Shown here: in pieces, positions 3,270 through 36,328 of the stretch
Layout: the number at the start of each line of letters is the position of its first letter
How positions within the stretch are numbered: the first letter of the stretch is position 1
DNA from: a virus
Length of the DNA stretch: 36,334 nucleotides
Strand: one strand, 5' to 3'
Virus record (IMG/VR): IMGVR_UViG_3300021335_000042
Location: 1-36,334 of that record
The notes under the pieces: generated by a model
Databases searched by the model: none
The model's input: only the letters and a program-made list of their open reading frames with translations
What the model was told of the DNA's origin: nothing
Position numbers and translations under genes: made by a program

Positions 3270-4154
3270 TTAGCCGCCGATGACTGGTTTTGCATCTGCA
3301 CCAGTTTCTTTAGTTGACTTAGCTTTCTGTCCTTTTAGAGACTTACTTGCTTTGCCACCTGGTACATTTACGTTACCTGCATTGTCTTCTTTTGGGCTAT
3401 TTGCAGTACCACCTGTAGCTTCGCCACCTTGTACTAGGTTGCTTGCGGTGCCGCCCATGTCGTTTGCACCGGCTACTGGAGATGCTGCATTCACACCGTT
3501 TTCGGTGTTGCTTGGAGCGCCGACTTTTTCAACGTACTCACGCATCACGTCTAGTTCGTCTCTTTCTTCGACTTCCTCATCTGAACCTTCATAAGCAATT
3601 GACTCGTCTTCGGCTTCTTCGTCGCCCATGTCCATGTCGCCTTCTTCATCGTCCATGTCCATGTCGCCTTCTTCGTCGCCTTCTTCGTCACCCATCATTG
3701 CTTCGAATTCTGCTTTTAGTTCGTCTAGGGCATCTTCTAGGTCTTCAACACGATCTTCAATCTCGCCTTCACCTTCTTCGTCACCCATATCCATTTCGTC
3801 GTCAGCTGGTTCCATGTCCATTGCCATAGCATCTGTTGGGTCATCGCCCATTTCGTCATCAGCTTCAACTTCAAATTCTTCTAAATCAAAGTCTTCTTCA
3901 ACTTCTTCGTCGTCTGACTCATCAACTTCTTCGTCAGTTGCTTCGTCAAGGTCTTCTTCATCTGACTCATCAACTTCTTCATCAGTTGTTTCGTCTAAAT
4001 CTTCGTCATCTTCTTCTAAATCATTTTCTAAGATGTTTTCGTAAATTTCACGTGATTTTTCTACTACAATCTCGTGGAAAAGCTCTTCTGCGCCTTCTTT
4101 ATCTTCGTTGATAAGACGCTCAAGCATTTCTTCAAACTTGTTGCGATCTGCCAT
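3270..4154 (-). CDS. Acidic prohead core protein (gp67/gp68 position)
   Basis: 294 aa. Residues 1-45 form a helical head (FEEMLERLINEDKEGAEELF and following VVEKSREIYE) resembling the short T4 prohead core proteins gp67/gp68. Residues about 46-205 are extremely acidic, with duplicated units EDLDExTDEEVDES (two near-identical copies, DNA about 3915-4015) and alternating GDMDM/DEEG runs (3620-3690). Residues 205-294 are a Gly/Asn/Ala/Lys-rich linker ending in basic KASKSLKGQKAKS. It occupies the place of T4 genes 67/68 between portal and protease. The acidic part may act as internal core or DNA mimic before proteolysis; that is inference. AGGAG precedes the ATG, and a late-type box GTTAAATA lies at 4200-4207. 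Confidence 0.75.
   Translation of the reverse strand: MADRNKFEEMLERLINEDKEGAEELFHEIVVEKSREIYENILENDLEEDDEDLDETTDEEVDESDEEDLDEATDEEVDESDDEEVEEDFDLEEFEVEADDEMGDDPTDAMAMDMEPADDEMDMGDEEGEGEIEDRVEDLEDALDELKAEFEAMMGDEEGDEEGDMDMDDEEGDMDMGDEEAEDESIAYEGSDEEVEERDELDVMREYVEKVGAPSNTENGVNAASPVAGANDMGGTASNLVQGGEATGGTANSPKEDNAGNVNVPGGKASKSLKGQKAKSTKETGADAKPVIGG
3915..4015 (-). repeat. Tandem in-gene repeat encoding acidic units
   Basis: Two roughly 48-base near-copies inside the prohead core gene, both encoding EDLDE-T-DEEVDES. Divergence between copies is mostly silent (A/G swaps), which shows selection for the acidic peptide. The low-complexity sequence also creates long Ser-rich shadow frames on the plus strand. 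Confidence 0.7.
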
Positions 4155-4262: not shown

Positions 4263-5015
4263 TTAAGAAAAATTGAACATTTTTTGAAAATCTTCAATAG
4301 TAATATGTGTTAAATTATCAAATTTATTTAGCTCGTCAGGTATATAGTTATCAGGTGCTATAACTCTATAAAATTGAATATTAGGATGTTCCTTTACTAC
4401 ACTTACTGTTTGTCTTAACCAATTACCGAAAAAAGTTGCTCCATCAGCACTTTTTTTATAATTAGGACTATCGGCGAAAATATTATTCAATTTTTTGCCG
4501 CCGTCTAAGCCTTTGTAATCAAAGCCTAGTATAAAGATTTTTTCATATGCATGTTCTGCTGCCAACCATAAAGCTGTAGGACCTGAACTCCACCCTTTAC
4601 TAGGATGAAAATAGTTTAAATTTTGAAAACGTTGGTATGCTTTGTTGTAATTTGTCCATACTTCGTTGTGATGCTGATAGCCAGACTTTGCAATTTCTAA
4701 AATCATTTTGACATCAACTGCTATAAGATAATCGGGTCTAAAAGTTCTATATACAGCATTGCAAGCGTAAATCTTGCCTACATGTTGTAAATCTTCTAGG
4801 TCAATAGTATTTCTACTTGTTCCGTTACCTAATACAAAGGCCATTTTTAAGGCAGGATGTATTTTAGGACGTTTTGTAGTAAGTTGCTTTACGGGGTCGT
4901 ATGCTTCGTTAGTTTTTGCAGATTTTTGCCGCCCAGCTTGCTTTGCTGCTCGCCGTTCATCTCTAATTTTTTTCCACTGAGATTTTGAGTATAAACTTTT
5001 ATCTAACTTTGCCAT
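4263..5015 (-). CDS. DUF115/MptE-like Rossmann protein in the head cluster
   Basis: 250 aa. Residues 1-45 are a basic, Lys/Arg-rich tail (SQWKKIRDERRAAKQ). A Rossmann-like start FVLGNGTSRNTIDLEDL (about 60-76) follows, then IYACNAVYR, a PDYLIAVDVKM strand and a late motif SSGPTALWLAAEHAYEKIFI-LGFDY. These are hallmarks of the DUF115 / 6-hydroxymethylpterin pyrophosphokinase (MptE-like) fold and of related sugar-transferase-like phage proteins. The substrate is unknown. Its ATG overlaps the stop of the upstream 82-aa gene (TAATG), so the two are translationally coupled. Sitting among head genes it may modify a virion component or simply ride along. Fold assignment moderate, function unknown. 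Confidence 0.6.
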   Translation of the reverse strand: MAKLDKSLYSKSQWKKIRDERRAAKQAGRQKSAKTNEAYDPVKQLTTKRPKIHPALKMAFVLGNGTSRNTIDLEDLQHVGKIYACNAVYRTFRPDYLIAVDVKMILEIAKSGYQHHNEVWTNYNKAYQRFQNLNYFHPSKGWSSGPTALWLAAEHAYEKIFILGFDYKGLDGGKKLNNIFADSPNYKKSADGATFFGNWLRQTVSVVKEHPNIQFYRVIAPDNYIPDELNKFDNLTHITIEDFQKMFNFS

Positions 5016-5278: not shown

Positions 5279-7027
5279 TTAGATTACCTGTTCGCCGCCT
5301 GGCGCTGCTGCTGCTCCGCCTACATTTTGATCTGTAGCAGTATCGGGTGGTGCTCCTTCTGGACCTGTTTCTGCGCCGCCTTCAACATCAGCTATATCTT
5401 CTGCGCCGTCTAGATCTGCACTTATGCCTGCAGAGCTTATGCCAGCAGTCCTCATTTCACCTGCTGCATCTGCACCCATGGGTTGTAAGTTTTCATCATT
5501 TTCTTCACGCCAAAGACGTTCGTTTTCTGCTATTTCTTCTGCGCTTAACCCTAAGAAACGTTTTAAAACAAACCTATTTGACATAAATGGTACTGCTTGA
5601 ATTTGTCCAAATGTTGGTATTCTAGCATTATCTAATTCACTTTGTCTATATGCAGCAAAGTTTTGCGGGGCTTCAAAATCAATATCAAACATTGCTGTAT
5701 CAATATTAATTCCTTTTTCTAATAGATAACGTTTAAATTCTTGGTTAAATTCTTCAACAATAAGTCCTTGTAACCGTTCACAATAATTATTAAATCTTAA
5801 TTCTTGTATGTAAGCAGTGCCGACTCGTCCGTCATTGTATTGGCTAGCACCGTCATCAGCCCCTGTTGGTAGATAAGAGGAAGGAATTCGTAAGCCGCGT
5901 ACGAGCTTATTAGTAAAATATCTAAGATCATCAATTTCGCCAAGGTTTGTTCCTCCTGGTAGTGTTTCGACTTTTGATCCACGTCCTTCAGCAGTTTGTG
6001 GGAAGAAGTAGTCTTCGTTGATTGACAGTGGATTGTATGCTGAGTCTATGACATTCTGGCCGCCTCCTGTCGCCGATGGGATACGTCTTTGGTGTATTTC
6101 CGTTTTAACACGCTCAACAAACTGCATAGCAAGGTGTGAAGGCATGTTACCCACATCAACGTAGAACACTCTACGTTCCGGTGCTCTTTGCACACGGTAG
6201 ATAATAATTGCATCCTCAAGCAATTCTTTTTGCTTGTAAACTTTAAATACGCTTTCTAATAATGAATTACCAAAAGGATAGTTATTATCTAGTCCTTCTG
6301 ATAAACTAAGATGAACTACGTGTTGCGCATCGATTGCAACTTCACCTTCTTGTAATTGGAACCTTCCACCTTGTGCAGAATTATTAGGAACACCTACCAT
6401 TCCGCGGACGCCACCTTGTAGATATCCTGAGCCGCCTCCTGTTATGTTTCCGTTTGTTTGATGAGGAGTAGTTGCAACTAAGTCTTTAAAGTTAAAAGCA
6501 ATGTCTTTAATGATATATTGCTCTGGTTTCCTGCCTTCGCTTTCATTAACAATAATTCTTGTTACTTTAGCAGGATCAACATGAAACCATTTTTTTGTTT
6601 CCGGATCTCTTAAAAATATAGCATCGCCGTACTTAAAAGTATTTCTAAAAATACGGAACATTCTTGTTTCGAAATTATTTAATTTGCACCATTGTCTTAA
6701 ATATTGGCCGAGGATTTTTACTTCGCTATTAGTTGCTTTTTTGTTAAAGTTAAATTTAAAATTTGTAGCATTTTCTTCGTTGTCTTGTGTACAAAATTCA
6801 GCAAGGATATCGAGAGCAGCATTTACTTCTGAATCAAGATCCATCACATTATAATGTCCATATCGTTCAACACGATTTGGCGATCCAACGTAAACATCAG
6901 GTAGGTATGAATTATAATTAGACTTAGCAGGGCCTAATGAACCACTGTTACTTCCATTAATTGGGCTGTAACCTCCACTAATATTATTTGCTGTCGGTAC
7001 TGGCGTAAAATATTTTTTCCAACTCAT
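5279..7027 (-). CDS. gp20: Portal vertex protein gp20
   Basis: Forms the dodecameric portal through which DNA is packaged and to which the neck attaches. 582 aa (T4 gp20 is 524). Family-typical segments: RVERYGHYNVMDLDSEVNAA (about 53-72), YGDAIFLRDPETKKWFHVDP (about 132-151), YPFGNSLLESVFKVYKQKEL, and YRVQRAPERRVFYVDVGNMP in the wing/stem region. The last 60 residues are an Ala/Gly/Glu-rich low-complexity tail beyond the T4 length. The ATG directly follows the stop of the upstream tape-measure-like gene (TAAATG) with AGGAG inside that gene's end, indicating coupled translation. Confidence 0.97.
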   Translation of the reverse strand: MSWKKYFTPVPTANNISGGYSPINGSNSGSLGPAKSNYNSYLPDVYVGSPNRVERYGHYNVMDLDSEVNAALDILAEFCTQDNEENATNFKFNFNKKATNSEVKILGQYLRQWCKLNNFETRMFRIFRNTFKYGDAIFLRDPETKKWFHVDPAKVTRIIVNESEGRKPEQYIIKDIAFNFKDLVATTPHQTNGNITGGGSGYLQGGVRGMVGVPNNSAQGGRFQLQEGEVAIDAQHVVHLSLSEGLDNNYPFGNSLLESVFKVYKQKELLEDAIIIYRVQRAPERRVFYVDVGNMPSHLAMQFVERVKTEIHQRRIPSATGGGQNVIDSAYNPLSINEDYFFPQTAEGRGSKVETLPGGTNLGEIDDLRYFTNKLVRGLRIPSSYLPTGADDGASQYNDGRVGTAYIQELRFNNYCERLQGLIVEEFNQEFKRYLLEKGINIDTAMFDIDFEAPQNFAAYRQSELDNARIPTFGQIQAVPFMSNRFVLKRFLGLSAEEIAENERLWREENDENLQPMGADAAGEMRTAGISSAGISADLDGAEDIADVEGGAETGPEGAPPDTATDQNVGGAAAAPGGEQVI

Positions 7028-9439
7028 TTACCTAACTCCTATTCCTCCGAACACATTGCCAATCATTGCTTTCGATGATCGAAGTTGTTTATCGTTTATA
7101 TTAACACCTTTTTTGCTTACTGTCAACTGTTCTTCCATGTTTTTGGCCATATTTTCCATAGGCCCTTTAAGGGCATCTGCAAATCCCATCATTTGATTTT
7201 GTAAATCAGGCATATTTGATTGCATTGTTTTTGCCATCTCTTGTAACTGCGGTGCCATACTACTTGCCATATTTTGCATTTGTGGACGTATACTACTTAC
7301 CTGTCCTTGCAACTGAGACCCCATACTTGCGAGTCCTGGACCGATTTCTTTAGCTACTCCATCTAATGAAGCACCCATTTTTCCAACATCCATTTGCTTC
7401 ATCATGTCTTCTGATATTTTAGCAAACTTACCAGCATTAGATTCTAGTGCTGATTTTTGATTCTTTGACTGTTCTATCATAGAACTACCAAATGATGAAA
7501 TTTCTTTCTCCATTATAGAATTGTCTGGTTTCATTTTCAGTCCTGCACCGAGTGTTTTTTGCAATTCATTTGCAGTTTTCTGTTGTGCTGCTACCTGATC
7601 TTTACTAGATCCACCAAAGGTACTTCTTAATTCTTTTGCAAATTCAGTTAACCCAGCTGCTAATTGTGGTTTAGTAGCAACCATTTCTTCGTTATGCAGC
7701 ATAGCCTTTGTACCTTTGCCAAAGTCTGCAAACAATTTACCGAACACTCCAACTGTACCTGTATTCAAACCAGTAGTCGGTAATCCTGTATCTTGCGGTT
7801 GCTGATTCCCATGAATAATAGTTTCTCCGTCCGGGTGTATGTTAACATTGCCTTCAACTACCATACTATTAGCTTTTGTAGTTAATTGCTTTATTTGGTC
7901 AATAATGCCTTGTCTCTCTTCAGGTTTTGCTGTTTGTAATTGATTCTCAAGTTCTTTTACTTTTGCAAGAGTATCTACGTCTCCTGCACCTGCTAGATTC
8001 ATTGTAGCAGTATCAATTTCTTCTGGTGTACTAGAAATTCCGGCAGACCCTGTAATTTCTTTAGATATATCTGAAAATAAGTTTAATACTTTTTCAACTA
8101 AAGCTTCTGGATTGGCTTCTGTTAACGACTTAGTAAAACCAGATGCTGCACCTGAAAGTTCTTTATACAGTTTAGTTGTTGCTTCAACTTGAACTTTTTC
8201 AGCAACTTCAAATGATTTCATTTGTGCTGCAATCAATGCATCTGTGACTGCTTTAGTGGTTCCTTCTCCGCCGTCTCTTTTTTGCGCATCTTGTTCTGCT
8301 TTGGCTCGCTTACGTGCAAGTTCTGTAACTTCTTCTTCAGTAAATGCTCTACGTTTGCCTGCTGCTACTTCGGCTTCTAGTGTTGCTCTAGCATCTGCTA
8401 GTGCTGCCCCCATTCCTGTTTGTGTATTAGTAATAATTTCGCCAGCAATTTGAGAATATTCGTTTAATCCTCCTAGTAATGCCATACGTCTTACGTTTTC
8501 GTCTTTGCCGCGTTTTTCCATAGCAGCTTGGAATATTCCCATTTGACGATTGTATTCAGCAACATCTCCTGCGTCTTGCGCTTTCTTCATTGCTCTCATT
8601 GAGTTTTGAGCTTCAGCACCTAATAATGCAAATAGTTTTGCATTATCTTTGCTAGGTACACCCATAGCCATCATGTCTTTCATTACGCCTTCAACACCTG
8701 GACCGAACGCCGCAGCTTTTTGCAAGTTTTGATCAAGTGCATCAGCCATGTCTTTTTCAAGACCAGATTTTAAAGCAATAATTCTTCCTTCACGTGCTCT
8801 AGCTTCCATTTCGGCTTGTAGTTCTTTACGACTTTTGCCTTGAAGTTTTGCCATTAAGTCCATTTCTTCTGCAAATGCAGCAGCGGATCTATTTCTTTCA
8901 GCAGTTGAACGCATGTCTCTACGATTGTTCATCCTAGAAATCTTATCATAGGCAAGCATAGATTCATTTATTTCTTCTGTGCTCATTCCTAATCTACGTA
9001 GATTATCTGCTGCTAAAGGCATTGTATCGTAAAATTCAGCTTGATTGGTTAAAAATGTTTGTAAACCTGCGTTTGCAGTTGCACCAAATAATGTAAAGTC
9101 ACCATTAGCATTTTTAATTGTTTTGGTTAACTGTTCTTGTGTCATCCTAGCAGCAGTTGCTTTGACAGTCATTTTGTCAAGCTCGCCGCCAAACGTCACA
9201 CCGTACTGAGACATCTCATTGAACACACCTAGCTGTCCTTCAAGATATCCTACAGCTTTACTAAACTTTCCTGTAGCTTTAGTTGTGTCTTCTAATGTAG
9301 GTAAACCGGTGGCATATTTTAAAGCTGTGTCTCCAAACGCTCCTGCCAGATCTTTAACGCCTTTGGTTAACTTTTTAGTTGCACCTGCTGTAGCGTCTAA
9401 GGCTGCGTTTGCTTTTTTTGGATCGAGTTCTTCTGCCAC
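7028..9439 (-). CDS. Probable tail tape-measure protein
   Basis: About 803 aa, mostly Ala/Gln/Met/Lys-rich helix. N-terminal helices (residues 1-170) carry KKLTKGVKDLAGAFGDTALK and SKAVGYLEGQLGVFNEMSQY. Residues 170-420 are strongly charged coiled coil. The C-terminal third has long Met/Gln-rich amphipathic repeats (SMAPQLQEMAKTMQSNMPDL). I see no enzymatic motif. Length and helical make-up fit a tape measure (T4 gp29 has 590 aa), and it lies divergently next to the gp26-type chaperone/hub gene. The longest frame begins at TTG 9445, but GGAG lies only 2 bases from it; GTG at 9439-9437 (MAEELDPKK) has an 8-base spacing and is preferred. A TATAAATT late-type box precedes it. It could alternatively be another large structural protein. 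Confidence 0.65.
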   Translation of the reverse strand: MAEELDPKKANAALDATAGATKKLTKGVKDLAGAFGDTALKYATGLPTLEDTTKATGKFSKAVGYLEGQLGVFNEMSQYGVTFGGELDKMTVKATAARMTQEQLTKTIKNANGDFTLFGATANAGLQTFLTNQAEFYDTMPLAADNLRRLGMSTEEINESMLAYDKISRMNNRRDMRSTAERNRSAAAFAEEMDLMAKLQGKSRKELQAEMEARAREGRIIALKSGLEKDMADALDQNLQKAAAFGPGVEGVMKDMMAMGVPSKDNAKLFALLGAEAQNSMRAMKKAQDAGDVAEYNRQMGIFQAAMEKRGKDENVRRMALLGGLNEYSQIAGEIITNTQTGMGAALADARATLEAEVAAGKRRAFTEEEVTELARKRAKAEQDAQKRDGGEGTTKAVTDALIAAQMKSFEVAEKVQVEATTKLYKELSGAASGFTKSLTEANPEALVEKVLNLFSDISKEITGSAGISSTPEEIDTATMNLAGAGDVDTLAKVKELENQLQTAKPEERQGIIDQIKQLTTKANSMVVEGNVNIHPDGETIIHGNQQPQDTGLPTTGLNTGTVGVFGKLFADFGKGTKAMLHNEEMVATKPQLAAGLTEFAKELRSTFGGSSKDQVAAQQKTANELQKTLGAGLKMKPDNSIMEKEISSFGSSMIEQSKNQKSALESNAGKFAKISEDMMKQMDVGKMGASLDGVAKEIGPGLASMGSQLQGQVSSIRPQMQNMASSMAPQLQEMAKTMQSNMPDLQNQMMGFADALKGPMENMAKNMEEQLTVSKKGVNINDKQLRSSKAMIGNVFGGIGVR

Positions 9440-9465
9440 AATCAAATCTCCGGTTATTTTACGAT

Positions 9466-9512: not shown

Positions 9513-10349
9513 ATGGAAGAACATACTAGTCCTTTACGCAAATACAAGCGTGAACCAAAATTATACGTAGACTTGCCTAGTAAAGGCGAATTTTATAATC
9601 CTATGGATTTAGATAAAACACAAGAACTAGAAGTCTTTAGTATGACTCCGGCAGATGAAATGGCTGTAAAAACACCAGATGCATTGTTCACAGGCAATGC
9701 TACAGTAAAAGTTATCAACAGATGCATTCCATCTATAAAAAATCCGTGGAACATGCCAATTATTGACGTAGACTTTTGTTTGAGTGCTATTAGATTAGCT
9801 AGTTATGGAAAAGATCTACAACTAAGTGCAACATGTAAACATTGCGAAGAAGTAAACGAATATGCTCTAAGTTTGCAAAACATCCTTGATTATTTTACTA
9901 GACAAAACTTTATAAATGAAGTCAATTACCAAGGCTTTGTTTTCGAAATCCGTCCACTAACTTATAGAGAGTTTACTAAGGTTAATAAGCAAACATTTGT
10001 ATTTCAACGACAAATTATACAACACGTTCCTAATATCACTGATGAAGAAAAACAAAAAGAAGAATTAGATAAAATCTATGACGCTATCAATGAAACTAGA
10101 ATGAATGCTATCATTGATTGTGTGATTAAAATTACTACTCCTGACGGAGAAGTAGAAACAGATCCAAAAGAAATTAGAAACTTTTTAGAAAATTCTGAAG
10201 CAGATTATTTTAATTCAATTACTGACACAGTTGTAAAAAATCGCCAAACTTGGGATATTCCTAAAAGCACACTAACTTGTGCTTCATGTGAAAAACAAAG
10301 TGAAGTTGAAACTGAATTGGACTACTCAAATTTTTTCGAACTACGCTAA
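9513..10349 (+). CDS. gp26: gp26-type baseplate hub / tail assembly chaperone
   Basis: 278 aa of the T4 baseplate hub family (gp26/gp51-like). Signature segments are KLYVDLPSKGEFYNP near residue 16, FEIRPLTYREFTKVNK near 147, and two CxxC pairs (TCKHCEE about 108, TCASCEK about 258) that look like a zinc-binding knuckle. In T4 these proteins act in hub assembly next to the tape measure. AGGA precedes the ATG, and a perfect late box stands 39 bases upstream. Near the 3' end, codons AAT TTT TTC form a U_UUU_UUC slippery heptamer (10331-10337) only four codons before the stop, so a fraction of ribosomes may continue into the -1 frame to give a 352-aa fusion. Confidence 0.85.
   Translation: MEEHTSPLRKYKREPKLYVDLPSKGEFYNPMDLDKTQELEVFSMTPADEMAVKTPDALFTGNATVKVINRCIPSIKNPWNMPIIDVDFCLSAIRLASYGKDLQLSATCKHCEEVNEYALSLQNILDYFTRQNFINEVNYQGFVFEIRPLTYREFTKVNKQTFVFQRQIIQHVPNITDEEKQKEELDKIYDAINETRMNAIIDCVIKITTPDGEVETDPKEIRNFLENSEADYFNSITDTVVKNRQTWDIPKSTLTCASCEKQSEVETELDYSNFFELR
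10331..10337 (+). other. Putative programmed -1 frameshift site T TTT TTC
   Basis: In the gp26 frame the codons read ..T TTT TTC GAA CTA CGC TAA. This is the canonical X XXY YYZ pattern (X=Y=T). A -1 slip makes CGA the next codon and enters the open frame that runs to 10570. That frame has no ATG, GTG or TTG until 10433. I see only a weak downstream stem (CTCTT 10350-10354 with AAGAG about 10373-10377) and no clear pseudoknot. Lambda G/GT and P2 E/E' use the same arrangement beside their tape-measure genes. Confidence 0.7.
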
Positions 10350-10570
10350 CTCTTACCCCGGATTCTGAAATTAAAGAGCTTGAAGAAGATCTAGAACTTC
10401 AAATCAAACAACTTAAACATAATTGCTACAAAATGACTTGGTATATGCGCGGCGGCGTCGATTCTAGCGAATTGTTTTATAACACAGATATTAGCGATTT
10501 AGAAATTATGGATAAAATTGTAGAAGAAAATATCGAAGCAACTAAAAAAACACAGTTACCTATGGTTTAG
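10337..10570 (+). CDS. -1 frame extension of gp26 (tail chaperone T-like part)
   Basis: A 77-codon segment in the -1 frame relative to gp26, open from 10316 to TAG at 10568-10570. It encodes a charged helix (EIKELEEDLELQIKQLKH), the motif KMTWYMRGGVDSSEL and a final helix ending KKTQLPMV. The first ATG (10433) lies inside the WYMRGG block, has no ribosome binding site and would give 45 aa, so independent translation is unlikely. Fusion through the slippery site at 10331-10337 gives 275 + 77 = 352 aa. A W-Y-M-R-G-G block after gp26 is something I associate with T4-like marine phages. Its last 4 bases overlap the stop of the convergent minus-strand gene. Confidence 0.7.
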   Translation, partial: RTTLTLTPDSEIKELEEDLELQIKQLKHNCYKMTWYMRGGVDSSELFYNTDISDLEIMDKIVEENIEATKKTQLPMV

Positions 10571-12093: not shown

Positions 12094-12543
12094 TTATGTG
12101 TTGGATTGTTTTGCCTTGATGTGATGTTCTAGCAATGCCTGTCGCAATTTATCGGAACCGCCAACTCTAACATTAATAATTCCATTGTAATACTCGTCGC
12201 TCTCTAATACACGGCGGTCAAATTGCTCTCTTGCCTCTATATAGGACATTTCGCCTCTGCCTTTGCAAAGATATAATATTTCTCTTGTAAAGTTTTCTGG
12301 GCCTAACTTGTCTACGTCTGCCTGTAATCTATCTGAACTACCCCAGTAGTCCTTCCAGTCACTTTCTTTGTAGCCTCGTCTTTTATTTTTTTTGCCTTTA
12401 AGTGGTGGCTTGGTAGTCTTAAACTTTGCTAGTTTTTTGCCTATATACTTTTGCCCAGTGGTAATGTTTGTTATGAGATAAACAAAGCCTTCATACTCGT
12501 CTGGTATTTTATCGATTTGTTTGCCTTCGTAAGTCCACTGCAT
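12094..12543 (-). CDS. GIY-YIG family endonuclease
   Basis: 149 aa. The GIY-like strand GFVYLITNITTGQ (19-31) and the YIG strand KYIGKK (32-37) start the domain. A lysine-rich loop (40-58) follows, then ESDWKDYWGSS, ENFTREILYLC and YIEAREQFDRRVL with the candidate catalytic Glu, and a final YYNGIINVRVGGSDK. The whole GIY-YIG core is present, with no extra DNA-binding domain of the I-TevI kind. Such free-standing nucleases are common in marine T4-like phages and may be homing or repair enzymes. It follows the 70-aa gene by 8 bases, has no strong ribosome binding site, and stands next to the hairpin-rich region. Confidence 0.85.
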   Translation of the reverse strand: MQWTYEGKQIDKIPDEYEGFVYLITNITTGQKYIGKKLAKFKTTKPPLKGKKNKRRGYKESDWKDYWGSSDRLQADVDKLGPENFTREILYLCKGRGEMSYIEAREQFDRRVLESDEYYNGIINVRVGGSDKLRQALLEHHIKAKQSNT

Positions 12544-25285: not shown

Positions 25286-28200
25286 ATGGCATACGAAGAT
25301 AATCAAAACGAATTTCCGGTACCAATTGACGGTGATGGACGTAGACAGTCTGCACAACATTTACCTCGATACTTTAGAACACATACTAACAAAAAGTTTT
25401 TAGGTAGCACTTTCGATCAGCTTATGCAGCCCGGAGTTGCTGAAAAACTTAACGGATACGTCGGCAGAGAAGTTGCTAAGGCTTATAGAGCTGATGATTC
25501 GTATATTAAAGATGTTAGTGCTGATAGAGAAAATTACCAGTTAGAACCGGCCGCAGTTATTACAGATGATCTGGGCAATGTTAGTTTTTACAAAGACTAT
25601 AATGATTTTATCAATCAAATTTCTAACTTTAATGGAAACAATAAAGACCATAGTAAACTTAATGGCCAAGAATATTACGCATGGAATCCTAACATAGACT
25701 GGGATAAATTTGTTAATTTTAGAGAATACTACTGGCTACCTAACGGTCCACAAACTATAAATGTTATAGGTCAAACAGATCAGGTCGAAAGCGAATATAC
25801 AATCTCACTAGCTGATAATGTAGATAATTACGCTTATCTTTTTTCTCCAGACGGTTTTACTCAAAATCCTAATCTAACTCTTTATAGGGGAATGACTTAT
25901 AGGTTTAATATAGACACACCCGGATTGCCGTTTACTATACGCACTGCAAAAAATAATGATGATGAATTTTTATTAGAAGCAGGAATATCTGAACAAAAAG
26001 TAGAAGATGGTATAATAGAATTAAAGTTAAATTCTGAAACTCCTGATATTTTATATTATATGGCAGATAATGATCTAAATGCATCAGGACTTATCAAAGT
26101 TTTAAATTTAGAGGAAGCTACGTCTATTGACGTTGAAACAGAGATTTTAGGCAAAAAGAAATATACAACATCTGCTGGCGTTGAGTTATCTAATGGTATG
26201 AAACTTTCCTTTATTGGAAAAGTTACACCGGAAAAATATAGCCAAGGACAATGGTATGTAGAAGGCGTAGGAGATAAAATTGTACTTGTTGATGAAAGCC
26301 AATTAACTGTTGCAAGCGTTTTTGCAGATAACCTGCCTGTTGAATTTGATGCCAACGAATTTGACCAACTTCCTTTTGATGAAGCAATAGGTTATCCAGC
26401 TAAGAAAGATTACTTTTTAATTAATAGAGCATCTATTGATGGAAACTTGTGGTCACGCTATAATAGATGGTTTCATAAATCTGTTATTGAGGTAAGTGCG
26501 TCAGCTAACGATCAGCCTAGTAACATTGATCAATCACAAAGAGCAAAACGTCCTATCATAGAATTTAATGCCGGTTTAAAATTACATAAATTTGGAACTA
26601 AATCTAAAACAGATATAGATCTTGTAGATAGTTTTACAACTGATATTTTTAGCATTATTGAAGGCTCTGAAGGATATAATATAGACGGGGTAGATTTAGC
26701 AGAAGGAATGCGAGTTCTTTTTACAGCTGATACTGACATACTTGTTAAAAATAGAATTTTTGAAATTAATTTTATTAACTTTGTTTCTTCCGAAGGAACA
26801 ACACGCCAAATAAATTTAAAAGAAATTCCAGATACACAGCCTATAGCTAACGAAACTGTTTTAGTCAAATTAGGAAGTACATTCGGCGGAGCAACGTTTT
26901 ATTATGATGGAACAGCTTGGCAGTCGGCACAAGAAAAAACACAAGTAAACCAAACACCATTGTTTGACGTATTTGATAAAAATGGTTACAGTTATGGAGA
27001 TAACAATTATTACAATGCAAATACATTTAACGGAACAAAATTGTTTAGTTACAAACCAGGTGTAGGCCAAACCGACAGTGAATTGGGAATTCCAGTAGCA
27101 TATAGAACAATAGATAATGTTGGTGACATTACTTTTAATTTTAATTTATTACAAGATTCATCAACATATCAATTGGATAATTCTATTATAACCATTGGAA
27201 CAGATGTAGGCTATGTCAGGCGTTATACTGATATTGATATCTTTGAAACAGATACCGGTTGGAAAAAAGCAAAAGGTTTAAGTAATCAGCCTGTTATTAG
27301 GCAATATGTATTTGATAACACTACAGATAGTTTTACAATAGATGTGTACGATCAAAGCAGTAGATTAACTGATTTATGGATACGGGTTTATAAAAATAAT
27401 GTTCTACAGTTTGAAAATTTACATTTTACATTTAGAGACACAGTAAACGAAGACAAAGAAATTGTATTTAATGATAGCTTAACAATAGGTGATGTTATTG
27501 TTATTAAAACAAGATCAGCAACAGAAAAAAATAAAAATGGATATTATGAAGTTCCTATTAATTTTGAAAAAAATCCGTTGAATGAGGATATTTTTGAATT
27601 TACTTTAGGAGAAGTAAACGACCATGTTTCAAGTATTGTAGAGGAGCTTGATAATTTTACTGGTGTTTATCCTGGGCCTAGTAATTTAAGAGATACTGGA
27701 AAAATAAGTCAGTACGGTAAAAGGTTTGTTAAACATTCCGCACCACAAAACTTGTCTTTATTTCATATCTTAGACAAAGATTCTAATTTAATTAAATCAT
27801 TGCGATATTCTCGAAGAGAATATTCTAAATTTAAAAGGTTGTTTTTGCAAATAGCAAACAGTTTAGGTTTTGAAGGTGCAACTAAAGATCACGTAGATAA
27901 AGTTTTAGCAGAATTAGTTAAAGATAAAACTAATAAAATGCCTTTTTATTTTTCAGACATGATTCCATTAGGTGCAACAAAAAAAACAAGTTTTATAATT
28001 GACGATGCTGACAGTCAAAACTTCTTTGCTTTAACAAATGTATTTGATATTGACACACCTAGCCGTAAAGCAGTACAGGTTTACTTAAATGGTAATCAAT
28101 TAATTTTTGGAAAAGATTATACATTTAACACTGACGGATTTGTTGTTATAACAGCAACTAAAGAAGTAGACGATATTGTTGAAATATATGAATATGAAAG

Positions 28201-31200
28201 CACAAACGGAAGTTATTGTCCTCCTACTCCTACAAAATTAGGATTATATCCTAAGTATGAGCCTACAATTTACGTAGATAGCGTCACCGGAACGAAGTTA
28301 ATTCAAGGGCATGACGGAAGTAGATTTGTTGCATTTGATGATTTTAGAGATAATTTACTTTTAGAATTAGAGTTAAGGATTTATAACAATATTAAAGTTT
28401 CGTATGATACAAATTTTGTTGATATTCTAGGATTTGTTAATAGCGAGGATAGAACAGCCGGGTTTGATAAAAGTTTAATTGATAACGCAATGTTAGCAGA
28501 CTTTATACAGTGGACTACTTTAATAGACGAAGACTATACAGAAAATCCAAATTTCCAAAGAACAAACGGATTTACATGGAACTATAGTTCAATGTCGAGT
28601 CCCCAAGGAAATGTTTTACCAGGATACTGGCGAGCGATTTACAAAAAGGGGTTTGATACAGATAGACCTCACACACATCCGTGGGAAATGCTAGGATTTT
28701 CAGTTAAACCAGACTGGTGGGAACAACAGTATGGCCCTGCGCCCTACACAAAAAATAATTTACTACTATGGGAAGATTTAGAAAAAGGAATTATAAGAGA
28801 ACCGGGCAAAAAATTTGTTGTTAACAAAAAGTTTATACGTACAGATTTAACATCGCATATTCCAGTTGACGAAGATGGAAACTTATTGCCACCGTCTGTT
28901 AGTGGATATGCAAAAAACTTTATCACTAATAACATTAGAGATTCTTTTAAATTTGGAGACGAGGGACCTGTAGAAGCTGCCTGGAGAAACAGCTCGGAAT
29001 ATCCGTTTGCTTTAATGACAGCTTGGTTATTAACTCAGCCTAATAAATTACTAGCAACCGGCTTTGACAGGATTAACCAAATTAGGAACAACGCCGGCGA
29101 GATTGTATATAAAACTACCGATAAACATATTAGACTTACAGACATTATATTTCCTAATACCTCAGAAGATGAAGCACAGATTTTTACTAGTGGTCTAGTA
29201 AATTATGTTGCAGGATATATGGCATCCAACATCACTACACCTTTTACTAACTATAAGTCTCATCTAAAAAGTATAAAAAATCAAATAGGGTTTAAACTAG
29301 CAGGTTTTACAGAGAAAGAAAAATTTAAATTAATTCTAGACAGCAGAACTCCATTAAACGAAGGTAATGTGTTTGTTCCTGATGAAAACTACAAGATCTT
29401 TTTAAACACTAGTACGCCAGTCCAAACTATAAACTACAGCGGCGTAATTATAGAAAAGCAATCTAATGGTTATATTATGCGAGGCTATGATCAAGAACAG
29501 CCAGTATTCAAATACTACAAAGCGATTGCACTTGATAATGATCCCATAATCAATGTTGGTGGTGTCTCAGAAGAATATGTTACTTGGGAAAGCAATAGAA
29601 TTTATGTTGAAGGCAAAAATGTAGAATATGAAGGGGCTTATTATAGAGTAACTGAGCAACACACAAGTGGTGCAAGTTTTGATAATGATAAGATGACAAA
29701 ACTTCCTAACTTACCATTAGTAGGCGGTCGCGAAGCTACATTTAAAAGAACATTTTTTGATAGAAGTATAAGTGAATTACCCTATGGAACATTAATTAGA
29801 ACTATACAGGAAGTAGTTGACTTTTTATTAGGCTATGAAAAATACCTTACTGATCAAGGATTCGTTTTTGATTACTTTGATGAGGATGATGAAATTGTTA
29901 ATGATTGGAAAAAATCTGCTAAAGAATTTATGTTTTGGTCATTGCAAAACTGGGCAGAAGGATCAGTAATTACAGTGAGCCCTGCTGCTAAAGAAATTAA
30001 ATTTATCTCTCAGTATTCGATGGTAGATAACATATTTGACAGCTTTTACGGATACACTATTTACAAAGCAGATGGTAAAAAATTAATTGAAGAATTTTCA
30101 AGTTTAAGCAGAGAAAACCCTAACGAATTTACACTGACTACAAAAAATACAGCAGATGGTATTTTTTCTGTTAAACTACCACTAGTTCAAAAAGAACATG
30201 TTATATTGTTAGATAACACAACAGTATTTAATGACATAATTTATGACTTACAGCCCGGATACAGGCAAGAGAGAATTAGAGTACTTGGGTATAGAACAAC
30301 GGAGTGGGACGGAAGTTTAAATATTCCTGGATTTATTTACGATGAAGCAAAAATTGTACAATGGGAACCTTGGAATGATTACGCAATAGGTGACGTGGTT
30401 AAATATAAGGAGTTTTACTATGCAGCTGAAAGCAAGGTTCCTGGGGCAGAAACCTTTGTTAGTTCGCAATGGAATAGATTGGCTGAAAAACCAGCTACAA
30501 AATTACACACTAACTTTGAATATAAAACTAACCAGTTCGCCGATTATTATGATTTAGATACAGATAACTTTGATGTCGAACAACAAAAATTTGCTCAACA
30601 CTTGATAGGCTACCAAAATAGAGATTACTTAGCTAACATCATTAACGATGACGTAAGCCAGTATAAATTTTACCAAGGGATGATTGCCGATAAAGGTACT
30701 CGTAATGCATTAACAAAACTTTTTGATGTGTTAGGAAGTGCAGACAAAGACAGTCTTGAGTTTTATGAAGAATGGGCAATTAAGACAGGACAATACGGAG
30801 CAGCAGACGGATTTGAAGAAGTAGATTTTATCTTAGATGAAAACAACTTTAGGCTCACTCCCCAGCCAGTAATACTTGTAGATAATATCACAGGTGAAGA
30901 AACTGATTTAATTTATAGAATTAGACCATTTGAAGTATACGAAAAGCCTCAAAATTACAATCATAAACCATTTCCTACCAAGTATATAAACAAAGGATTT
31001 ACAAAAGACAGCGGTTATGTTAATTTAGATGACGTATCAATATCTGTTAATTCTTATGATGATATTTTACTACAGGAATTTAGTAAAATAAAAAATGGAG
31101 ATTACGTATGGGTAGGAAACGAAAAACTTAGCTGGAACATTTACAAACATGTTGATACACCATATAATGTAGAAAGTGTAGTAGGCGGAGAAACAGAATT

Positions 31201-34200
31201 TACGATTACTGTAGATGCAACACCTTCTGATATTACAAAAGGTGATATTATTGGAGTTTTTGATCTAATTAGTACTGAAGTCGAAACTGATGACAGTACC
31301 TATGCTACAATTACTCAAAGCACAGCAGCTATAGGCGGTTTTTATAAAATTAAAGATGTATTATTAAACAAAATAACCCTTGCTACAAATACAAAAATTG
31401 ACGATGTAGAAAAATGCAAAGGACAAATTACAAAATTTAAAACTGCACGTTATGCTGATATTTCTTCTGCAAATGATTTTTCACAAGAATTTTTAGAAAG
31501 TAATGACTTAATTTGGATAGATAATGACGATTCAAACAATTGGACAGTTTTACAGCAAAAAGATGCTTACGATCTACTCGAAACTGTTACAAATTCACTG
31601 TCTGATGGGTCGGATCAAGAATATGCAACTGCTATTGCTGCAAATAAAAACAACACAGTTTTAGTTGTAGGCGCTCCTGGTATAGATGATGGGAAAGTTT
31701 TTGTATATCGCAGAGGAAGTGCTAACAATAAATGGAAGTTAGCACAAGTTTTAGAAGCTGATAGCGATATAGCAGATGCTGGACAAAGATTTGGCGAATC
31801 TGTAGCATTATCTTCAGACGGGAAATATTTAATTGTAGGATCGCCCAGTGCGTCAAACGTAAAGTCTGCGTTTAGCGGCGATTATGTAGAGTCCCAAGAT
31901 TATCAGTCAAACGACATTGTTATAAAAAATGAATTATTATGGTCAGCTGCAAAAGATATTTTAGGCAGTGAAGATAATATCATATTTAATAGCTTTGAAA
32001 GCACCGCACAAATTATTGAAGAGTTAGGATTAATTAACGAAACTGACGAAAAGATTAATACAATTTTTACAGGTAATTATCCTTTCGAAGATACGTCAAC
32101 TAACCATATACTTGTTAGAGCACCAAACGAAATGTATGCAGGTTCTGCAATAGGCGACGAAGTGGTTATGAAATGGAATGAGCTTACTTACACCAACCAG
32201 GGAACAACTACTTTAGAATCAGTTGATTTGTTCGGCGGATTAGTTACAGGTGTAGATGGAGATTTTATAAACTCTACTAACCACACAATACAACATAAGA
32301 TTGATGTTGTACTTTATGTTGATGCCGCTACAAATATTCCAAATGTAGACGATAGAGTTGAGACTATAGGTGCATTTGGCACAGTCGATTATGTGTATTT
32401 TGATGGAGCTAGAGTAACACTGTATCTTAAAGATGTTAACGGAGCATTTACGTTAGAAGGTAGTTTATTTTTAGAATCAGGCGATTTTGTTGGTGAATAT
32501 TTAAGGGTGGCTCCTGTAGAAACAACAGACACTTCAAACGTCTATAGCGGATATTGGTATTTTAATACTCCTAATTACACAACTGGGAGTGTTAGATCAG
32601 ATCAAGGTAGAGGATTAGTAATATATGATGTTATACCTCAAGGAGAAATAGATCCTAATAGGTATTATTATAATATCCTTGATAATAATAACGAGGTCAT
32701 AAGTAGCGAGAACAGTATTAATAGTTATATTAGGGTGCTCTCGGCACAAGGTGCTCCAGGACCTTACGGAAATACAGATCCTATACTTTCTAATTTATTT
32801 GTAGTTAGAGCTCCTAAAGCATTAACAGACGTGTTGGTCAATGGCAACACTTTTGATATGTATGTTCCTCAGCTTACTAGATTTAGTGACGGCAGTTACA
32901 AAAATCCTGCAGACATTAACCTTACATTCAGTACATTGAATAGAAGACAGACTGTAGTAGATCTTTGGGACGGATATATTAATTTTAACTTTACAAAATT
33001 TGGCAGCAACGGCGATCCTTTCGAGCCTAAAGTTGGTCAAACTGTTAGAGATGTTACAACAGGCGCAACTGCTGTTGTGACTTATTACCAAAGAAACTCT
33101 TTGAATGTTACTATTTTTGTTAAGACAGTTACAGGAGATTGGAGTCTAGGTAATGTATATGGTGACAATGCTGAAATAGAATTTTTGCAAATTCCAGGTG
33201 ATCCTGATCCAATTTATCAAGCAGATCGTGTTATGGGTCAAACGCAATATAGGGCACTTGGTCTAGCTTCAGAAGGTATTGGCAAACTTATTGTTTTAGA
33301 AAATTTAACAGGTAATGTTTCGCTGCCTACAACTGATATACTAACACAAACAGAATATTGGTTTTATAATGAAGGAGATGTATTAGGAATACCTAGACAG
33401 CCTAGTATCCCTAGTCCAGATAATAATGACTGGAGCGTTGTGTACAACATACCGGCTTCCGGAAGTGGAGTAGCTAGTGGAAACACTAATGAAGGTATGT
33501 ACTCAGTGTTTGCATTAGAAGGAAGCGTGAATTATAGTTTAATAAATTCGTTTACAATACCTGAATCAACTTCTAACCTATATCTTGGCAGCGAAATTAA
33601 ACTTACAAAAAATAATGACTTATATAAAGGGTTTGTTCATGCTAGAGGCGATAATGAAATTACAGGTTTAGACCAAGATTACACTAGTTGGGGTAGAATA
33701 TACTTCTTAAACCAAGGTATAGACGAGTTTGGCAATTCATGGGCCTGGGAGTTTGCAAAGGATAAAAACTTTGTAGGAGAATTTAGTGCGCTATCTACTT
33801 ATTACACAGGAAACATTGTTTTTTATAATGGCAATTTATACACTGCTGTCACAAATACTGTAGCAACTCCTTTCAGTACAGTAAATTGGCAGTTAATTGA
33901 AACAGATGAAAGAACTGAATTTGTTGGATATGTTCCAAATGAAACAGGACAATTATTAGATAACGATGCAGACACAATTATTTCCGGCACAGAAAATTTA
34001 ATAAAGTTTGCTTATGACTTTGATGTTTCAGAAAACGGAGAAGTTTTAGTAGTTGCAAATAAAAATAGAACATCTGCACCTAATGAAGTTTTAGTGTACA
34101 GATCATTTAATGGAAATTATTTAAAACGCCAAACAATTATTGCTCCTAGCACAACAATAGGATTTGGTGACAGCATATCCATTAGCTCAGACGGTATGCT

Positions 34201-36328
34201 CTTAGCTATATCAGCACCTTTTGATGACAATCGAGAAGCAGAACAAGGAATTGTTTACGTTTACACACAACAAAATGGCACGTTTGTCAAAACGCAGGAC
34301 CTTTATAGTAGAAGCAACGAAAGTAACGAACAATTTGGTCATCTAGTTAAGTTTGACGGAAATACACTTGTCGTAGGAAGTAAAAATGCAGATAGCTTTG
34401 AAAGCACAACTTTCGACAATCAAACAACAACTTTAGATAATGCGTTTACTAACTTTAAAAACTTTGATGCTAATAGTGGAGTTGTATACGTTTTTGAAAG
34501 ATTGAATAATACTTTAGTTTACGGGCAAACAGTTTCATATGACGACGATGCTATTGAATATTTTGGAAGAAATATTTTAGCTGTTAATAATCACATCTAT
34601 GTAGGTTTGCCGAAGTATTCTGCAGATGCCACCGGAAATAGAATAGGTGCTATTGCAAATTATAGAAAAATAGAAAACATTTGGCAGAATTATAGAAGTC
34701 CAAAAGCTACAGTTGATTTAGATAAAATTAAGAGTATTAAACTTTATGATAGGAAAGAAGGCGAAGTACTTCAATACATTGATTATATCGATCCTATCCA
34801 AGGAAAAATAGCAGGACCTGCTGAACAAGAAATAAGTTTCAAAACTTATTACGATCCTGCAACATATTCTGTAGGGAACGATACTGTTGATGTAGATGAA
34901 TTTGATACCTGGGATGAATCTTTTGTAGGCAGAGTATGGTGGGATTTAACAAATGCTAAGTTTTTAAATCCATACCAATCAGACGTAACATTTAGCGCAA
35001 ACAATTGGAATACACTGTTTGACGGCAACAGTATTGATATATACGAATGGGTAGAAAGCTCAAGGCTTCCTAGTGCATACGATGAATTGGCAGACACAGA
35101 AGAAGGCATTGCAAAAGGAATAAGTGGATCTTCTAAGTACGGCGACGAAGTGTATGTCCAAAAACAAGTTTACGATCCTATATCGCAAGGATTTACTAAT
35201 AAGTATTTCTTCTGGGTAAAAAACAAAAGCATTACTCCAAATGTAGAGTGGAGAAATAAGTCGATAAAAGACGTAGCTTCGCTAATAGCAGATCCTGCAG
35301 GCCAAGGATACAGATTTATAACCTTAATTTCAGAAGACAGCTTTGTATTGTACAACTGTGATAGTTTGATAAAAGGTACAGATACAATACTAAGTATCCA
35401 ATATTGGACTATCGAAGATCAAGATATTAATATTCATAATCAATATCAAATCATGACAGAAGGATTAGAGACAAGTAAGCCACATCCTGATATTGAAAGA
35501 AAATGGTTTGATAGTTTAGTTGGATATGATGAATTTAGTAGGGTAGTACCTGCTTCTGAACTTCCAGCAAAACAAAAATATGGAATACTTAACAAACCAA
35601 GACAAAGTTGGTTTATTAATCGCACAGAGGCGCTAAAACAAGTTGTTGAAAGAATCAATAGAGTATTACTACAGAATCTTATAATAGATGATAAAATTAT
35701 TACTCCGTTATTCCAGAATGATCCTGCTCCAACAGACGCAACAAATTTATACGATACAACTGTTGATGTTCTTGCAGATTTAGATTTTGTCGGAGTTGCT
35801 AAAGCAGAAAGATGTATTATCACACCTACAATAGAAGATGGTAAAATTATACGAGTGGTTGTTACTGAACCAGGTAGAGGATACTTGAGACCACCTACCG
35901 TAACAATTACCGGAACTGGGCAAGATGCAGTGATTACAACAGTAATTGATTCTCAAGGTAGAGTTACTAGTGCTCAGATTCAAAATAGTGGAACAAACTA
36001 CGATGACACCACAGTAATAACAGTTAGAAGATTTTCTGTATTGGTAAACAGCGACGAAACAATTCAAGGCAAATGGGCATTATATGAACGATTGACAGAT
36101 ACTAGAAAATGGTCAAGGATTGAAAGTCAAGCCTATGATGTAGCTTTGTTTTGGAATTATGCCGATTGGTATGATGTTGGATATAGCGATTTTACAGATA
36201 TCGATTATCTAATAGATGAAAGTTATGAACTTCAAGGTTTAGATGATAATATTGGTGATATTGTTAAAATTAGCAATGTAGGCACAGGCGGATGGCTATT
36301 ATTACAAAAGATAGATAATCAAATTTAG
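25286..36328 (+). CDS. gp7: Giant gp7-like baseplate wedge protein with embedded sugar-binding and FG-GAP modules
   Basis: 3680 aa (T4 gp7 1032), directly after gp6. A cupredoxin-like strand set (LTLYRGMTYRFNID, about 195-272) recurs in marine gp7 homologues. Three segments look like CBM5/12 carbohydrate-binding modules (W, then GxxVxYxxxxYxA, then W/L): about 1434-1472, 1693-1736 and 2827-2873. FG-GAP-type beta-propeller blades appear at about 2112-2190 and 2908-3110 (QRFGESVALSSDGKYLIVGS, GFGDSISISSDGMLLAISAP, EQFGHLVKFDGNTLVVGSK, EYFGRNILAVNNHIYVGLP), split by some 700 residues. Residues 3130-3500 resemble the gp7 family body (IDYIDPIQGKIAGPAEQEIS). Two GxGY-PP repeats (3525-3582) precede the stop. 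AGAGG precedes the ATG. The stop is 6 bases from the window end. Confidence 0.82.
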   Translation: MAYEDNQNEFPVPIDGDGRRQSAQHLPRYFRTHTNKKFLGSTFDQLMQPGVAEKLNGYVGREVAKAYRADDSYIKDVSADRENYQLEPAAVITDDLGNVSFYKDYNDFINQISNFNGNNKDHSKLNGQEYYAWNPNIDWDKFVNFREYYWLPNGPQTINVIGQTDQVESEYTISLADNVDNYAYLFSPDGFTQNPNLTLYRGMTYRFNIDTPGLPFTIRTAKNNDDEFLLEAGISEQKVEDGIIELKLNSETPDILYYMADNDLNASGLIKVLNLEEATSIDVETEILGKKKYTTSAGVELSNGMKLSFIGKVTPEKYSQGQWYVEGVGDKIVLVDESQLTVASVFADNLPVEFDANEFDQLPFDEAIGYPAKKDYFLINRASIDGNLWSRYNRWFHKSVIEVSASANDQPSNIDQSQRAKRPIIEFNAGLKLHKFGTKSKTDIDLVDSFTTDIFSIIEGSEGYNIDGVDLAEGMRVLFTADTDILVKNRIFEINFINFVSSEGTTRQINLKEIPDTQPIANETVLVKLGSTFGGATFYYDGTAWQSAQEKTQVNQTPLFDVFDKNGYSYGDNNYYNANTFNGTKLFSYKPGVGQTDSELGIPVAYRTIDNVGDITFNFNLLQDSSTYQLDNSIITIGTDVGYVRRYTDIDIFETDTGWKKAKGLSNQPVIRQYVFDNTTDSFTIDVYDQSSRLTDLWIRVYKNNVLQFENLHFTFRDTVNEDKEIVFNDSLTIGDVIVIKTRSATEKNKNGYYEVPINFEKNPLNEDIFEFTLGEVNDHVSSIVEELDNFTGVYPGPSNLRDTGKISQYGKRFVKHSAPQNLSLFHILDKDSNLIKSLRYSRREYSKFKRLFLQIANSLGFEGATKDHVDKVLAELVKDKTNKMPFYFSDMIPLGATKKTSFIIDDADSQNFFALTNVFDIDTPSRKAVQVYLNGNQLIFGKDYTFNTDGFVVITATKEVDDIVEIYEYESTNGSYCPPTPTKLGLYPKYEPTIYVDSVTGTKLIQGHDGSRFVAFDDFRDNLLLELELRIYNNIKVSYDTNFVDILGFVNSEDRTAGFDKSLIDNAMLADFIQWTTLIDEDYTENPNFQRTNGFTWNYSSMSSPQGNVLPGYWRAIYKKGFDTDRPHTHPWEMLGFSVKPDWWEQQYGPAPYTKNNLLLWEDLEKGIIREPGKKFVVNKKFIRTDLTSHIPVDEDGNLLPPSVSGYAKNFITNNIRDSFKFGDEGPVEAAWRNSSEYPFALMTAWLLTQPNKLLATGFDRINQIRNNAGEIVYKTTDKHIRLTDIIFPNTSEDEAQIFTSGLVNYVAGYMASNITTPFTNYKSHLKSIKNQIGFKLAGFTEKEKFKLILDSRTPLNEGNVFVPDENYKIFLNTSTPVQTINYSGVIIEKQSNGYIMRGYDQEQPVFKYYKAIALDNDPIINVGGVSEEYVTWESNRIYVEGKNVEYEGAYYRVTEQHTSGASFDNDKMTKLPNLPLVGGREATFKRTFFDRSISELPYGTLIRTIQEVVDFLLGYEKYLTDQGFVFDYFDEDDEIVNDWKKSAKEFMFWSLQNWAEGSVITVSPAAKEIKFISQYSMVDNIFDSFYGYTIYKADGKKLIEEFSSLSRENPNEFTLTTKNTADGIFSVKLPLVQKEHVILLDNTTVFNDIIYDLQPGYRQERIRVLGYRTTEWDGSLNIPGFIYDEAKIVQWEPWNDYAIGDVVKYKEFYYAAESKVPGAETFVSSQWNRLAEKPATKLHTNFEYKTNQFADYYDLDTDNFDVEQQKFAQHLIGYQNRDYLANIINDDVSQYKFYQGMIADKGTRNALTKLFDVLGSADKDSLEFYEEWAIKTGQYGAADGFEEVDFILDENNFRLTPQPVILVDNITGEETDLIYRIRPFEVYEKPQNYNHKPFPTKYINKGFTKDSGYVNLDDVSISVNSYDDILLQEFSKIKNGDYVWVGNEKLSWNIYKHVDTPYNVESVVGGETEFTITVDATPSDITKGDIIGVFDLISTEVETDDSTYATITQSTAAIGGFYKIKDVLLNKITLATNTKIDDVEKCKGQITKFKTARYADISSANDFSQEFLESNDLIWIDNDDSNNWTVLQQKDAYDLLETVTNSLSDGSDQEYATAIAANKNNTVLVVGAPGIDDGKVFVYRRGSANNKWKLAQVLEADSDIADAGQRFGESVALSSDGKYLIVGSPSASNVKSAFSGDYVESQDYQSNDIVIKNELLWSAAKDILGSEDNIIFNSFESTAQIIEELGLINETDEKINTIFTGNYPFEDTSTNHILVRAPNEMYAGSAIGDEVVMKWNELTYTNQGTTTLESVDLFGGLVTGVDGDFINSTNHTIQHKIDVVLYVDAATNIPNVDDRVETIGAFGTVDYVYFDGARVTLYLKDVNGAFTLEGSLFLESGDFVGEYLRVAPVETTDTSNVYSGYWYFNTPNYTTGSVRSDQGRGLVIYDVIPQGEIDPNRYYYNILDNNNEVISSENSINSYIRVLSAQGAPGPYGNTDPILSNLFVVRAPKALTDVLVNGNTFDMYVPQLTRFSDGSYKNPADINLTFSTLNRRQTVVDLWDGYINFNFTKFGSNGDPFEPKVGQTVRDVTTGATAVVTYYQRNSLNVTIFVKTVTGDWSLGNVYGDNAEIEFLQIPGDPDPIYQADRVMGQTQYRALGLASEGIGKLIVLENLTGNVSLPTTDILTQTEYWFYNEGDVLGIPRQPSIPSPDNNDWSVVYNIPASGSGVASGNTNEGMYSVFALEGSVNYSLINSFTIPESTSNLYLGSEIKLTKNNDLYKGFVHARGDNEITGLDQDYTSWGRIYFLNQGIDEFGNSWAWEFAKDKNFVGEFSALSTYYTGNIVFYNGNLYTAVTNTVATPFSTVNWQLIETDERTEFVGYVPNETGQLLDNDADTIISGTENLIKFAYDFDVSENGEVLVVANKNRTSAPNEVLVYRSFNGNYLKRQTIIAPSTTIGFGDSISISSDGMLLAISAPFDDNREAEQGIVYVYTQQNGTFVKTQDLYSRSNESNEQFGHLVKFDGNTLVVGSKNADSFESTTFDNQTTTLDNAFTNFKNFDANSGVVYVFERLNNTLVYGQTVSYDDDAIEYFGRNILAVNNHIYVGLPKYSADATGNRIGAIANYRKIENIWQNYRSPKATVDLDKIKSIKLYDRKEGEVLQYIDYIDPIQGKIAGPAEQEISFKTYYDPATYSVGNDTVDVDEFDTWDESFVGRVWWDLTNAKFLNPYQSDVTFSANNWNTLFDGNSIDIYEWVESSRLPSAYDELADTEEGIAKGISGSSKYGDEVYVQKQVYDPISQGFTNKYFFWVKNKSITPNVEWRNKSIKDVASLIADPAGQGYRFITLISEDSFVLYNCDSLIKGTDTILSIQYWTIEDQDINIHNQYQIMTEGLETSKPHPDIERKWFDSLVGYDEFSRVVPASELPAKQKYGILNKPRQSWFINRTEALKQVVERINRVLLQNLIIDDKIITPLFQNDPAPTDATNLYDTTVDVLADLDFVGVAKAERCIITPTIEDGKIIRVVVTEPGRGYLRPPTVTITGTGQDAVITTVIDSQGRVTSAQIQNSGTNYDDTTVITVRRFSVLVNSDETIQGKWALYERLTDTRKWSRIESQAYDVALFWNYADWYDVGYSDFTDIDYLIDESYELQGLDDNIGDIVKISNVGTGGWLLLQKIDNQI

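Follow-up and report, generated by a model that had tools for sequence, protein, structure and literature searches.

A gp26-type gene of jumbo and T4-like phages that probably encodes short and long tail assembly chaperones by -1 frameshifting

One gp26-type gene in a 36,334 nt stretch of virus DNA (IMG/VR record IMGVR_UViG_3300021335_000042, here called the window) very likely gives rise to both a short and a long tail assembly chaperone, the latter by -1 frameshifting at a T_TTT_TTC heptamer near the end of the gene. An earlier note, made from the window sequence alone, had proposed such a fusion of gp26 with a downstream extension, and comparison with homologous loci supports it. The slip site and the fused coding rest on comparative sequence evidence; the frameshifting itself, the ratio of the two products, their function as chaperones and the client they serve we infer. 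The features of the locus are given in Table 1.

Table 1. Positions of the putative chaperone locus and its neighbors in the window
Feature	Position	Strand	Basis
gp26-type gene, putative short tail assembly chaperone (TAC-N), 278 aa	9513..10349	+	ORF; PF12322, phrog_150, AlphaFold2 model
Slippery heptamer T_TTT_TTC, in register with the gp26 frame	10331..10337	+	sequence; homolog conservation
-1 frame extension (putative TAC-C domain), 77 codons + TAG, WYMRGG motif, four predicted helices	10337..10570	+	
Predicted 352-aa frameshift product (TAC-NC, G/GT-type)	9513..10570	+	profile match spanning the junction
Divergent long protein, 805 aa (TTG) or 803 aa (internal GTG), candidate tape-measure client	7028..9445	-	inferred
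Portal protein	5279..7027	-	phrog_213, E=3.6e-112

The gp26-type gene and its -1 frame

The 0 frame of the gp26-type gene ends with TAC TCA AAT TTT TTC GAA CTA CGC TAA, and the heptamer sits four codons ahead of the stop (10347-10349), in the correct register claimed for it by the earlier note. No stop interrupts the -1 frame between 10316 and 10567, and it closes with TAG at 10568-10570; a recount returned the lengths originally given for the short product, the 77-codon frame and the fusion (275 + 77 = 352 aa). By codon log-odds the -1 frame is the preferred one, scoring +0.25 per codon where the other frames score -0.55 and -0.94. TTTTTTY runs are frequent in the AT-rich window (36% GC), with 26 on the plus strand, so the heptamer by itself is weak proof; since so long an open frame (76-77 codons) also arises in about 0.35% of Markov sequences, the window alone is suggestive at most, and it is conservation that carries the case.

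No ATG, GTG or TTG was found within 45 nt of the gp26-type stop in the window. The -1 frame has no ATG before 10433, which is 32 codons beyond the heptamer; the ATG there lacks a Shine-Dalgarno sequence, and another internal ATG follows at 10445. The statement that this frame has no start codon or ribosome binding site of its own is accordingly correct for the first part of the extension, but has to be qualified for the remainder, given these internal ATGs. At first sight the frame break has the look of a formerly continuous gene split by an indel, either as a pseudogene or through sequencing error. A second IMG/VR contig (L002) holds an identical gp26 and junction, making a sequencing error unlikely, and the same break occurs at the same codon pair in more than 100 divergent phages; this conservation led to rejection of the indel explanation, which is barely credible.

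The gp26-type protein matches the gp26/gp51 family PF12322 (T4_baseplate; E=2.1e-16, 60.7 bits against a gathering cut-off of 24.5) and phrog_150, 'baseplate hub' (E=2.7e-16). The short form and the extension were submitted to two separate structure predictions. The AlphaFold2 model of the short form (pLDDT 91.9) resembles T4-type gp26/baseplate-hub proteins in BFVD, and the extension modelled alone forms four helices (pLDDT 87). A PDB fold search with the gp26-type model gave no confident match, including to solved tail assembly chaperones, and a PDB sequence search returned nothing below E=0.05.

Conservation of the heptamer and the extension

A tblastn search recovered 62 phage records carrying the gene, almost all from jumbo phages (RaK2, PBECO4, PA5oct, Atu_ph07 and XacN1 types), at 23-34% identity. 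In ten representatives of these, the gp26 frame closes shortly past the same heptamer while the -1 frame goes on. Scans of IMG/VR contributed further jumbo-type loci and 80 cyanophage-type loci. T_TTT_TTC was in register at all 82 loci of one set, and at 91 of the 96 jumbo-type loci before thinning, the others having T_TTT_TTT (two) or T_TTT_TCC (three, L124-126); these last three have lost T_TTT_TTC and kept an overlapping, in-register A_AAT_TTT. Thinning to below about 85% similarity left a non-redundant set of 115 loci, 55 of jumbo-phage type and 60 of cyanophage type. All 115 carry a canonical heptamer in register (T_TTT_TTC in 111, T_TTT_TTT in three, the overlapping A_AAT_TTT in one). 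The codon preceding the two phenylalanines always ends in T, the first Phe is always TTT, and the second is TTC at 111 of the 115 loci, counts that ignore phylogeny; elsewhere in the same genes Phe is encoded by TTT in 72% and by TTC in 28% of cases. Over such divergent sequences this synonymous pattern is far from what the codon counts would predict by chance, with phylogeny uncorrected.

The -1 frame of the extension is open at every one of the 115 loci, and each other frame contains stops at all of them. Differences at codon positions 1, 2 and 3 of the -1 frame numbered 2416/1553/3922 in the jumbo type and 3042/1584/4969 in the cyanophage type. Third positions thus vary most and second positions least, a sequence signature indicating that the extension evolves like a protein in the -1 frame, under purifying selection. 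The comparison of pelagiphage and cyanophage gp26 loci that the earlier note had suggested came out in favor of a conserved heptamer register and -1 frame. As for the third point raised there, the lack of an upstream start codon, ATG, GTG and TTG are absent within 45 nt of the stop at 24/55 jumbo-type loci (window included) and 14/60 cyanophage-type loci; a start codon is found at or near the gp26 stop in some relatives, such as Phosso, Atu_ph07 and UB.

These starts bear on the possibility that there is no fusion and that the extension is a separate small gene, translated through termination-reinitiation or from a start codon of its own within the frame. Reinitiation could operate in several relatives where an ATG or TTG overlaps or lies just past the stop (ATGA in Phosso, TAATG in UB); annotators call the extension as a separate CDS in Phosso and UB, and Vibrio phages D507 and K357 have lost the heptamer and kept TAATG. 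However, besides the many loci without any nearby start, Shine-Dalgarno motifs are rare (a start codon with one is present at only 7/55 jumbo-type and 3/60 cyanophage-type loci), the heptamer is conserved at synonymous positions that reinitiation would not need, and in T4 gp51 the C-domain is fused to a gp26-like part. Since neither a start nor a Shine-Dalgarno sequence is conserved, an independent start was rejected, and a separate gene is improbable.

T6 is a short run for transcriptional slippage. A frame change by that route, rather than on the ribosome, would suit a site made of six consecutive T (as many as eight in pelagiphage HTVC008M), but the run is nearly always exactly T6 followed by C, and L124-126, with only five T (AAATTTTTCC), retain the -1 frame together with an X_XXY_YYZ heptamer in register. 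We regard slippage of the polymerase as more improbable still than a separate gene, and ribosomal -1 frameshifting as the preferred reading.

Potential stimulators of frameshifting differ between the two types. At cyanophage-type loci GAG GGN is favored five codons ahead of the heptamer (GAG at 44/60, versus a background of 31%), a preference not found at jumbo-type loci. At that spacing GAG GGN resembles the internal Shine-Dalgarno sequence of dnaX, and the bias looks like a stimulator of this kind. At jumbo-type loci the RNA downstream of the heptamer is on average more folded (mean z -1.84) than other parts of these genes (-0.23). In the window there was no clear downstream RNA stimulator (z -0.69) and no upstream Shine-Dalgarno sequence.

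Cyanophage, pelagiphage and T4 relatives

In cyanophage S-BM1, the start codon of the annotated gp51 (T4-GC_12; L016, 6657-6752) is an ATG inside the gp26 -1 extension, and the frame containing this ATG runs uninterrupted from the heptamer at the end of gp26. The 'gp51' of pelagiphage HTVC008M (L017, 16366-16503) likewise lies inside a gp26 -1 extension, where the site is T_TTT_TTT within a run of eight T. In both phages a tape-measure-sized gene comes next, and the order gp26, extension and long tape-measure-like gene, all on one strand, holds for the cyanophages and one pelagiphage. Fused profiles of the jumbo and cyanophage types align through the junction over 283 columns (E=4.8e-19); by profile comparison, the predicted fusion of the window is thus a homolog of cyanophage gp26 joined to its -1 extension.

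The alignment of the cyanophage fusion profile with T4 gp51 reaches almost to the C-terminus of gp51 and covers its tail (E=6.6e-7), and the direct match between jumbo-type and T4 profiles is weak. T4 gp26 and gp51, which are both full-length matches to PF12322 and lie on opposite strands, are paralogs corresponding to the short and long forms. The gp26 protein stops at the FF position (..KEFFELL), and gp51, listed as a hub assembly chaperone missing from the particle, has additional C-terminal residues, a tail that can be aligned to the extension of cyanophages. This correspondence makes -1 frameshifting of a tail assembly chaperone the best explanation of the locus, and agrees with the suggestion that gp26 and gp51 be recast as a G/GT-type pair. 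The idea of a frameshift pair in T4-like phages stands for the window and its cyanophage and pelagiphage relatives but does not extend to T4 itself, where two divergent genes supply both forms, without a heptamer at the FF position and without frameshifting. The two-gene state of T4 may be derived, as the heptamer and -1 frame are retained in the Straboviridae nt-1 and AsFcp_2 and in Stenotrophomonas phage BUCT608.

Destruction of the heptamer, which the earlier note had named as evidence against a fusion, was found solely in Vibrio phage D507 (L102, 2339-3295) and its relative K357 (L190). There the site reads CTTTTC, and the start codon of the C-domain ORF is an ATG that shares bases with the stop (TAATG), a split that is a third way to supply the C-domain. 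A 595 kb phage (L014, LR756511) has an in-register TTTTTTC near 3699-3771, some 73 nt ahead of the last base of the gp26 stop and much farther upstream than at other loci, with a -1 frame open for 118 nt. With this heptamer the huge phage fits the scheme, leaving D507 and K357 as the only exceptions.

Proposed mechanism, candidate client and prior work

In the proposed mechanism, most ribosomes would terminate at the gp26-type stop and release the short chaperone. A minority, with both tRNAs on TTT-TTC, would slip back one base at the heptamer and read the -1 frame to its TAG, giving a product with one more helical domain at its C-terminus. If the lambda G/GT system is a guide, the tape-measure protein may be coated by many copies of the short form and few of the long one, whose additional domain may recruit tail-tube subunits, leading to the correct tail length. 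The client would probably be the product of the divergent 805-aa gene.

The order portal, long protein and gp26 is common to Phosso, Paride, UB, 7t3 and RaK2, while the neighbors of the gp26-type gene differ in Atu_ph07. A long divergent upstream ORF is present at 42 of the 51 jumbo-type loci with enough flank, and a long downstream gene at 47/49 cyanophage-type loci. The 805-aa protein is homologous to its L170 counterpart (E=9e-19) and to several other divergent long ORFs, some of its relatives having hydrophobic segments of the sort often seen in tape measures. It gave no convincing family match among Pfam and PHROG profiles, matched no known tape-measure profile, and a comparison with cyanophage tape measures detected no similarity. 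By its conserved gene order and length it is a likely client; the earlier assignment of this gene (as 803 aa) agrees with its surroundings but finds no counterpart among known tape-measure profiles. Gp701 of Atu_ph07, annotated as a tape measure, was set aside as it is only 205 aa. Elsewhere in the window, a single 3680-aa ORF (25286-36328) adjoins baseplate wedge genes, and 4263-5015 and 12094-12543 (minus strand) weakly matched an alpha-2,3-sialyltransferase family and, in a further match, phrog_447 ('NAD synthetase') along with families of homing endonucleases.

Vladimirov, Gautam and Davidson are said to have identified the tail assembly chaperones of T4-like phages in 2022; in that study, genes 26 and 51 are reported to be the short/long pair of T4, and several other T4-like groups to have kept the frameshift. 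The genes are the same as those considered here, but in the window the long neighbor is divergent rather than downstream. The mechanism and the recasting of gp26/gp51 are thus already known, having been proposed then for T4-like phages, and the present locus is a well-supported addition. In the passages that cite that work, the papers on PRFect and phage Adele (PMC12846349) mention that some T4-like phages encode the short and long proteins in separate genes, and that TAC-N genes of T4-like phages contain poly-T slip sites. Phage Adele (Pakpunavirus, Vandenendeviridae) has a conserved -1 frame and a T-rich slip site between its chaperone and tape-measure genes (PMC12846349), but belongs to another phage family and has its tape-measure gene downstream of the chaperone locus. 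In lambda, gpG and gpGT are a short protein and its -1 frameshift-extended form, with the slippery site near the 3' end (reviewed in PMC5009743); the window would share this arrangement, but its slip site is U_UUU_UUC and the gene presumed to encode its client runs on the other strand.

The word 'frameshift' does not occur in the texts of the RaK2 and Atu_ph07 papers. Leaving aside what the 2022 study covers, we found no earlier description for the RaK2/Atu_ph07-type jumbo group, and this is possibly the first. It is conceivable, if somewhat doubtful, that the jumbo group (RaK2, Atu_ph07, PA5oct and the window phage) represents an undescribed arrangement, with a movable heptamer (T_TTT_TTC to A_AAT_TTT) and an opposite-strand client, which with T4 and D507/K357 would make three ways to one domain.

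The finding would give a definite mechanism and role to an unannotated extension in a large group of marine and jumbo phages. It would also correct annotation, since the 'gp51' of cyanophages and pelagiphages would be the tail of a frameshift product rather than a free small gene of some 30-45 aa. Lastly, it lends independent support to a reading of T4 gp26 and gp51, which have long been classed as hub factors, as the short and long chaperones of the tape measure, with a gene pair in place of a frameshift.
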